A stretch of 64,000 nt of DNA from Arcobacter roscoffensis (GTDB lineage: Bacteria; Campylobacterota; Campylobacteria; Campylobacterales; Arcobacteraceae): NCBI RefSeq assembly GCF_024267655.1, contig NZ_CP100595.1, positions 806,001-870,000 on the forward strand, read 5' to 3'. The notes beneath the pieces are model-generated. The model worked only from the letters and a program-made list of their open reading frames with translations. It did not search any database and was not told where the DNA came from. This document shows, one piece after another, positions 5,861-7,947 of the stretch. A program made the position numbers and the translations under genes. Position 1 is the first letter of the stretch; the number at the start of each line of letters is the position of its first letter.

Positions 5861-5958
5861 AAGAGTCCTAATAATACTTTTTAAGGGATTATATCGAAGT
5901 TTAACTAAGAGAAAAAATTGAGTAATTTTTATTATAATTAAAAGTTATACTATTTGCT

Positions 5959-5979
5959 AAAAGAGGCAAAGCCTCTTTT
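5959..5979 (-). terminator. Rho-independent terminator after the thioredoxin gene
   Basis: Perfect 9-bp arms AAAAGAGGC / GCCTCTTTT with a 3-base loop, starting 2 bases beyond the thioredoxin stop codon. It is symmetric enough to work in both directions. Confidence 0.75.
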
Positions 5980-5981
5980 AT

Positions 5982-6350
5982 TTATTCGAAGTATTCTTTT
6001 ACAGTTTCTTCTAATTCTTCTACACTTAAAACACCTGAGTGTCTTCCAACTTCCATACCATCTTCTAGGTATACAAGTGTAGGAACTCCAAAGGCTTTAA
6101 ATCTTTTTGTTGTTGCTTTTTGTTTTGTTACGTCTACTTTATAGATGTAGATATCTTTTGGTTTAGTACTTGTAGCATATTTTGTCATGTTCTTCTCTAG
6201 AACCTTACAAGAGCCTCACCAGATTGCGTGAAAATCAACTATTACGTTTTTACCTGCTATTTTTTCATCAAAATTATCATCTGTTATCTCTTCAAATGCA
6301 AAAAGAGACGTTGATAGAAAAAATAGCATCATAAGTACTATTTTTTTCAT
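5982..6350 (-). CDS. Putative selenocysteine-containing periplasmic thioredoxin (UGA at codon 45)
   Basis: Thiol-disulfide oxidoreductase, probably exported. A naive reading gives only the C-terminal 68 residues from 6188. The same frame is open further upstream to an ATG at 6350, preceded by AAGG with 6-base spacing, and is interrupted once, by TGA at 6216-6218. Read through, the protein has 122 residues: a signal peptide (MKKIVLMMLFFLSTSLFA), a thioredoxin beta strand NVIVDFHAIW, then W-U-G-S-C-K, then the cis-proline loop GVPTLVYL. The TGA is exactly at the first cysteine of the thioredoxin CxxC site. No other stop or frameshift is present, and a SECIS-like hairpin starts 12 bases after the TGA. 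Elsewhere in the window TGA is an ordinary stop (tetR, uvrB), so recoding would be context-dependent. The alternative is a point nonsense mutation of TGC/TGT. No sel genes are in the window. Confidence 0.75.
6182..6210 (-). promoter_or_regulatory. Candidate bacterial SECIS element
   Basis: On the minus strand, 12 bases after the in-frame TGA, GTTCT (6203-6199) pairs perfectly with AGAAC (6193-6189) around the loop AGAGA. An outer helix TTGT (6210-6207) / ACAA (6185-6182) is possible. The apical loop begins 17 bases after the TGA and has G as its second base. Both fit the published pattern for bacterial SECIS elements (short apical stem, G in the first loop positions, close spacing, as in E. 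coli fdhF). The hairpin lies inside the coding sequence, as expected in bacteria. Confidence 0.6.
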
Positions 6351-6411
6351 GGTTTACCTTTTTAAATTTTTTTTAGTATAGATTTTTTTCGTTTAGTTTA
6401 TGTTAAGAGTG

Positions 6412-6492: not shown

Positions 6493-7947
6493 ATGAAATT
6501 AAATGAATTAGAAGTAAATATTGATTATTTTGAATTTGATGAGAATTTATATCAAAAATTAGATGCAACACCTGTTTTAAATCCTAAGTTAGTTTCTTTC
6601 AACAAAAAAGCTTGTGATTTAATAGATTTAGATTGTAAAGAGTGTGAAACACAAGAGTTTTTAGACTTTATGAATGGAAAGAAGCTTTTAAAAAATTCAA
6701 CTCCTTATTCTATGGTATATGCAGGTCATCAGTTTGGCTATTTTGTACCACAATTAGGTGATGGAAGAGCTATAAATCTTGGAAGTGTAAACTCTTGGCA
6801 CTTACAAACAAAAGGTTCAGGTCTTACAAAGTATTCACGACAAGGTGATGGAAGAGCAGTTCTTAGATCTTCTATTAGAGAATATATTATGAGTGAAGCT
6901 ATGCACTCTTTAGGAATTCCAACTACAAGAGCTTTAGCTATTATAGACTCAGAATCATTTGCACATAGAGAGTGGGAAAGTGAGTCTTGCTCCATAGTTA
7001 TGAGGCTTTCACCTTCTTGGATTAGAATAGGAACTTTTGAATTTTTTGCAAGAACTGATGATGCTAAAGCAAATCTAACTCAATTGGCTGATTATGTGAT
7101 AAGCCAGTCATACCCTCACTTAGAAAATGAGCAAAATAAATATCAAAAGATGTTTTATGAACTAGTTGATAGAAGTAGTGAGCTTGTAGCTTATTGGCAA
7201 GCTTATGGTTTTATGCATGGAGTTTTAAATACTGATAACTTCTCTATGGCAGGTCTTACTATTGATTATGGACCTTATGCTTTTATGGATTACTTCGATA
7301 AAAACTGTATTTGTAATCACACAGATAATGAAGGGCGATACTCTTATAATAATCAACCATATGTTGCAAGATGGAATTTGATGGTTTTAGCAAATGCAAT
7401 GGGCTCAATCATAGATGAAGAAAAAGCTATAGAGTATTTACACACCTTTTTACCACAGCATGAAAATGTATACTTAAATCTTATGAACAAAAGATTAGGA
7501 TTAGATGGTTCTAAAAGTAGTGATAACAATGCTTCTTTAGTAAAAGAGTTATTAGGAAGTTTAGAAAGCTCACAGATGGATTATAATGTATTTTTCTACA
7601 GATTGACTAATCTTAGCAGTTTTGATGAACTAAACAGTATTACTGATATTGCTGTTTTTAGAGAGCCTTTGATAAATTGGTTTGATTCATATAAAGAAGT
7701 ATGTGAGAAAGAAGAAAGTAGTTTTGAAAGTAGAAACGCTATTATGAAAAAAGTAAATCCTAAATATACTATCAAAAACTATATGCTTCAAGAAGCTATT
7801 GAAAAAGCCCATGAGGAAGATTATACTTTAGTAAATGACTTACTTAAAATTGCTCAAAATCCTTTTGATGAACATGAAGGTTTTGAGAGATATTCAAATC
7901 CTACACCACTAGAACACGCAAATTTAAAACTTAGTTGTTCTTCATAA
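6493..7947 (+). CDS. selO: Protein adenylyltransferase SelO (YdiU/UPF0061)
   Basis: A pseudokinase-fold enzyme that transfers AMP from ATP to Ser/Thr/Tyr of target proteins; in other bacteria it acts on redox proteins. The 484-residue length is normal. Family signatures are GHQFGYFVPQLGDGRA (79-93), LQTKGSGLTKYSRQGDGRA (K107 likely ATP-binding), MRLSPSWIRIGTFEFF, and the inverted catalytic motif HGVLNTDNFS with D248, N249 and D258. It ends LSCSS. Eukaryotic SelO has selenocysteine near this terminus, whereas here it is a cysteine. It is divergent from a probable selenocysteine thioredoxin across 142 bases and ends at a terminator shared with the YceI gene. Confidence 0.95.
   Translation: MKLNELEVNIDYFEFDENLYQKLDATPVLNPKLVSFNKKACDLIDLDCKECETQEFLDFMNGKKLLKNSTPYSMVYAGHQFGYFVPQLGDGRAINLGSVNSWHLQTKGSGLTKYSRQGDGRAVLRSSIREYIMSEAMHSLGIPTTRALAIIDSESFAHREWESESCSIVMRLSPSWIRIGTFEFFARTDDAKANLTQLADYVISQSYPHLENEQNKYQKMFYELVDRSSELVAYWQAYGFMHGVLNTDNFSMAGLTIDYGPYAFMDYFDKNCICNHTDNEGRYSYNNQPYVARWNLMVLANAMGSIIDEEKAIEYLHTFLPQHENVYLNLMNKRLGLDGSKSSDNNASLVKELLGSLESSQMDYNVFFYRLTNLSSFDELNSITDIAVFREPLINWFDSYKEVCEKEESSFESRNAIMKKVNPKYTIKNYMLQEAIEKAHEEDYTLVNDLLKIAQNPFDEHEGFERYSNPTPLEHANLKLSCSS

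Follow-up and report, generated by a model that had tools for sequence, protein, structure and literature searches.

A thioredoxin gene with an in-frame UGA in Arcobacter roscoffensis: a predicted exported selenoprotein and its lineage in the Arcobacteraceae

From at least 2006 onwards, lists of bacterial selenoproteins have included thioredoxins of family PF00085 that carry selenocysteine (Sec, U) at the first position of the active site (UxxC) (PMC1794560). A 2026 review, citing Kim et al. 2015, ranks them among the experimentally supported selenoproteins (PMC13188914). For the Epsilonproteobacteria, one analysis counts one annotated Sec thioredoxin, which may or may not belong to the lineage described below, and gives a SECIS consensus in which an apical hairpin of 5/6 bp stands a few nucleotides past the UGA and a G in the loop is invariant (PMC4607533). 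The 'thiol:disulfide interchange protein' selenoproteins (PF13098; PMC13188914, PMC1794560) also have a UxxC motif; they are Dsb-like by name and presumed periplasmic. A literature search that covered few subscription journals found no paper on an exported, DsbD-linked Sec thioredoxin.

The gene analysed here lies in a stretch of 64,000 nucleotides of the A. roscoffensis genome, hereafter the window. It is a thioredoxin gene with an in-frame UGA, and its interpretation as a selenoprotein gene, first put forward from the letters of the window, is supported by the sequence comparisons below. We propose with high confidence that its product is an exported thioredoxin with Sec at residue 45; it would probably serve to reduce disulfides in the periplasm, with DsbD as its electron donor. 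Like the known Sec thioredoxins (PMC1794560, PMC13188914), it would combine a thioredoxin fold with Sec at the first CxxC position, and it shares with the Epsilonproteobacterial set a SECIS hairpin directly 3' of the UGA (PMC4607533). It has a signal peptide, which may set it apart from the known Sec thioredoxins. Its lineage differs from them in a motif of the W-U-G-S-C or W-U-Y-A-C type, in belonging to the Arcobacteraceae, and in having Cys paralogues that adjoin dsbD. It is distinct from the PF13098 selenoproteins in that its match to the Pfam Thioredoxin family PF00085 (74.5 bits, curated cut-off 23.5, E=7.9e-21) is well above that to PF13098 (42.3 bits).

Exported selenoproteins are already known, such as the Tat-exported FdhA and Dsb-like selenoproteins. 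The first-pass annotation had called an exported UxxC thioredoxin unusual; this holds for the location and the neighbourhood of the gene, but not for export of a selenoprotein as such. Its description as a probable new selenoprotein is likewise correct in part: what is new is the gene or subfamily, unusual in where its product is predicted to reside and in its neighbours, but within a known kind, UxxC thioredoxins being established (PMC1794560, PMC13188914, PMC4607533).

The gene and its predicted product

The coding sequence occupies positions 5982..6350, as first annotated, on the minus strand, which had been left unstated; its assignment draws on the translation, the PF00085 match and an AlphaFold model. 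When TGA is translated as U, the frame from 6350 to 5982 reads MKKIVLMMLFFLSTSLFAFEEITDDNFDEKIAGKNVIVDFHAIW-U-GSCKVLEKNMTKY...EYFE*, that is, 122 residues and a TAA stop (5984-5982). It is continuous from signal peptide to thioredoxin domain and broken by one TGA only, as had been claimed. This TGA (6216..6218, minus strand) is codon 45 and stands where CxxC has its first Cys, within the motif W-U-G-S-C-K. The resolving residue, Cys48 (TGT, 6207..6209, minus strand), is invariant in alignments A3 and A4. A Shine-Dalgarno-like AAAGG/AAGG (6357..6361, minus strand) is found 6-7 nt 5' of the ATG. Just 3' of the stop codon lies a terminator-like hairpin with a 10-bp stem and a 3-nt loop (5958..5980, minus strand; one found versus 0.1 expected in shuffles), whose T-run was scored on the plus strand, the palindrome being able to serve either strand.

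Residues 1-18 (MKKIVLMMLFFLSTSLFA; 6297..6350, minus strand) read as a signal peptide, with likely cleavage after A18. The mean Kyte-Doolittle value of residues 4-18 is 2.4, and nearly all relatives retain the same features (KK, a hydrophobic stretch and LFA-FE). Export of the protein is thus predicted, and very likely; by established knowledge, the signal peptide would target it to the periplasm by way of the Sec translocon. The score against TIGR01068, the NCBIfam equivalog of cytoplasmic thioredoxin, is 73.2 bits, below the cut-off of 96.8, and together with the signal peptide this suggests that the protein is not a cytoplasmic thioredoxin equivalog.

The AlphaFold model has a mean pLDDT of 90.9; the mature part reaches about 94-98, whereas residues 1-20 score low. 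Its best Foldseek matches are thioredoxins (S. aureus 2o7k, rmsd 1.3 A, TM 0.79/0.93). The model predicts a thioredoxin fold with UxxC at the start of a helix and with P90 at the conserved (cis-)Pro position, a residue that is invariant in the alignment.

Relatives, gene neighbourhoods and the proposed link to DsbD

Relatives were searched by protein in the family (104 genomes) and among other relatives. UGA occupies the identical codon in 23 sequences from 21 genomes including the window, hence in 22 further sequences from 20 further genomes. Twenty genomes of the family, with the window's among them, account for 22 of these sequences; the remaining one (G433:C12:1959-2315, L156; VWUHSCQALGKS) comes from another family of the same order, suggesting transfer or an older origin. 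All other close relatives carry TGT or TGC at this position. The Cys/UGA interchange that the first-pass annotation had proposed to look for is therefore present, the 23 UGA sequences standing against TGT or TGC in the paralogues and in one SelO-locus orthologue, and a frameshift is found in none of the relatives. Nearly every Cys form has WCPPC, and the UGA forms have WU[GYFP][SA]C or variants of it. UGA matches in two genomes of family f13 (G339, G262) were rejected, their TGA lying before the start or past the end of a Cys thioredoxin.

In a protein tree built with residue 45 left out, a single branch (support 95/94) unites the 22 UGA genes with three Cys genes. Two of these Cys genes are long-branch rows, and the other (L022, from Poseidonibacter lekithochrous, G053) falls within a supported UGA group. 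This SelO-locus orthologue (L022/L082) has TGT, followed by a hairpin sequence identical to that of its UGA sisters (AAGGTTTTAGGTAAAAACTTGACAAAATA), and appears to have returned from Sec to Cys recently, leaving a fossil SECIS.

The Poseidonibacter genus group (g5) also has a second UGA paralogue (L066 5325-5690, L068 and L069; G034, G058 and G053). Its motif is GUSAC or TUGAC/TUSAC, so that the Trp preceding Sec is lost, and the SECIS hairpin is retained, shifted by one pair and with a 6-nt loop in the G034 copy. G034 further encodes a divergent Cys thioredoxin (TWCDIC; L019/L065) in tandem with a UGA gene.

The gene dsbD adjoins 26 of the 30 Cys relatives versus 2 of the 22 UGA genes, the window gene not being one of the two. 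In two genomes (G014 and G051), the UGA gene lies inside the dsbD operon and is the sole close copy detected (E <= 1e-18). The window's own genome encodes a Cys paralogue (G000 2955083-2955439; L064 4072-4440) next to a dsbD whose product has DsbD_N, DsbD_TM and thioredoxin domains. This paralogue is about 43% identical to the window protein, equal to it in length and provided with a signal peptide, but it has WCPPC with TGT, no SECIS constraint and dsbD as a neighbour. Since the window gene and most UGA genes are located away from dsbD, the link to DsbD rests on the paralogues and on the two genomes. On these neighbourhoods, DsbD is the favoured electron donor, with moderate confidence.

The protein would then act as a disulfide reductase in the periplasm, a role suggested by the gene neighbourhoods. 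Sec45 would attack the substrate disulfide and Cys48 would resolve the mixed selenosulfide, after which DsbD would re-reduce the enzyme using the cytoplasmic thioredoxin pool. The WCPPC paralogue encoded next to dsbD would act alongside it, and the Sec enzyme may be a faster or more oxidation-resistant version of the reductase.

A different role, possible though less probable, is that of a Sec thioredoxin working outside the DsbD pathway, as an oxidase, an isomerase or a dedicated reductant (for example of a periplasmic peroxidase), and reduced by other means. This would fit the position of the gene in most genomes, where it is apart from dsbD and often adjoins selO, but its nearest Cys relatives are dsbD neighbours and the UGA form can be the only close copy within a dsbD operon. 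The selO association, seen for 10 of the 22 UGA genes across several genera, includes the window, where the divergent neighbour (6493..7947, plus strand) encodes a SelO protein adenylyltransferase of 484 aa (PF02696, E=1.5e-130). As SelO is regarded as a cytoplasmic protein, this neighbourhood may be coincidental. The C-terminus of the window SelO reads ...CSS; the animal Sec form of SelO ends in USS.

It is reasonably likely that the UGA genes represent a separate lineage of exported Sec thioredoxins that has long persisted in the Arcobacteraceae. It apparently arose from a DsbD-linked Cys thioredoxin, would have replaced the Cys form in some dsbD operons, and would have reverted to Cys in one species, with the SECIS still legible. 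If so, periplasmic disulfide reduction would be tied to the selenium machinery through this lineage. The lineage offers a natural comparison between a Sec and a Cys version of the same periplasmic thioredoxin, at times within a single cell, together with an apparent recent reversion in which the fossil SECIS is intact, and the reason for the use of selenium by an exported thioredoxin becomes testable.

The hairpin and the selenocysteine machinery

The hairpin GUUCU-AGAGA-AGAAC (6189..6203, minus strand) begins 12 nt past the UGA and consists of a 5-bp stem, GUUCU (6203-6199) with AGAAC (6193-6189), and the 5-nt loop AGAGA (6198-6194). It is as the first-pass annotation described it and, beyond that, conserved and covarying in the UGA genes. 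By established knowledge, the SelB-GTP-Sec-tRNA(Sec) complex would bind this hairpin and decode the UGA as Sec. A possible lower helix of 4 bp, UUGU (6210-6207) with ACAA (6185-6182), appears in the single-sequence RNAfold structure (6182..6210, minus strand). Single-sequence folding was dropped as evidence, the result not being significant (z = -0.9 to -1.5; equalled by 35 of 200 shuffles over 44 nt and by 15 of 200 over 42 nt). A lone hairpin fold being unexceptional, the evidence beyond chance is comparative, namely the identical UGA codon in the 22 further sequences and the covarying stem.

Among 19 distinct UGA sequences, 97.9% of the cells are paired over the five pairs of the apical stem. 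Three of these pairs show double-sided changes in the UGA genes (GC/AU/GU, UA/CG and UA/CG), and RNAalifold, unprompted, returned the same five pairs. None of 500 shuffles scored as high in covariation as the nine-pair structure, and structures slid along the alignment pair in 38-63%. The same columns in 25 Cys sequences have 64.8% of cells paired, with no covariation and no support for the structure. The lower helix, paired in 88% of cells in the UGA forms versus 64% in the Cys forms, shows no double-sided changes, and its support appears weaker than that of the apical stem.

When a covariance model was made from the remaining UGA sequences, with the window's left out, the window site scored 55.1 bits (E=3.6e-13), an outcome in line with the SECIS call, and nothing else in the window or the genome came near that score. 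Because such a model also captures coding conservation, the pair counts are the stronger structural evidence. Four weak matches in the genome (E 0.04-0.5) were rejected as further selenoproteins, as they have no convincing UGA-spanning frame. An Rfam scan of the hairpin region gave nothing relevant.

Compared with the Epsilonproteobacterial consensus (PMC4607533), the window element is alike in its 5-bp stem 12 nt past the UGA and in its 5-nt loop with G, the base reported as invariant, at position 2. It is unlike in the loop sequence AGAGA, most relatives having AGGU. Nearly all of the relatives have AGGU or GGGU, and the start AGAG is common to the window and G034 (AGAGC) only. Both strands of the stem change non-synonymously (Val/Asn, Ala/Ser, Thr/Ser), the paired residues varying jointly because the stem is built from their codons. 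This suggests that the RNA structure shapes the protein sequence at this place, and the lineage would thus provide a case in which a SECIS appears to do so.

The first-pass annotation had made its case depend on the presence of the Sec genes, and all four are present in the genome, a single contig of 3.15 Mb. A single locus holds selB (1164117-1165931, above the curated cut-off), selA (1165958-1167277) and selC (1167343-1167439), the last identified as tRNA-Sec by Rfam (48.6 bits) and by ARAGORN (tRNA-SeC, anticodon TCA); selD lies elsewhere. The formate dehydrogenase gene fdhA has a UGA at the usual place (ARI-U-HSSTVAG), with UUGCC-GGGGU-GGCAA about 13 nt past it. The selD gene (L061) has an in-frame UGA of its own (KAAG-U-AAK); with SelD itself UGA-encoded, the supply of selenium relies on a selenoprotein.

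In genomes with at least 90% completeness and little contamination, the UGA form occurs in 18 of 66 with selA versus 0 of 22 without it (Fisher p=0.003, genomes counted regardless of relatedness). Two genomes (G140 and G141) have the UGA form and no selA match; both are incomplete (86-88%), and selB is found in G141, neither gene in G140.

Decoding of the UGA codon

Taken together, the covarying hairpin, the machinery and the distribution of the UGA form indicate that Sec is almost certainly inserted at this codon. It is very improbable that the UGA is read as Trp or Cys instead, by a variant code or near-cognate readthrough, to give a selenium-free protein. The fold would tolerate Cys here, and Cys relatives exist; however, UGA is otherwise a normal stop, ending 5 of the 52 long ORFs of the window, the genome has the whole Sec system along with two other selenoprotein genes that contain UGA, and the hairpin would be left unexplained.

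The codons on either side of the UGA are under purifying selection, omega between pairs of UGA genes being 0-0.3 upstream and 0.08-0.47 downstream by a crude Nei-Gojobori count. A TGA inside an otherwise intact frame could mark a pseudogene or a sequencing error, TGT or TGC having mutated or been misread, but this reading is refuted by the comparative data: the identical TGA recurs in 20 further genomes, without another stop or frameshift and under the selection just described, and the many independent genomes exclude the error that the first-pass annotation had allowed for.

Under the standard code, the only product is a 68-aa ORF starting at M55 (5982..6188, minus strand), the fragment that the first-pass annotation expected an automatic annotation to report. 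Ordinary ORF calling would miss the catalytic half of the gene in every one of the roughly 20 genomes examined. That this ATG-initiated ORF is the true product, with UGA as a genuine stop, is hardly credible, as it has no catalytic motif, the 44 upstream codons (signal peptide and part of the fold) are under purifying selection, and codon 55 is ATG in the window and G034 only, being TTA, TTG, CTT, ATT or ATA elsewhere.
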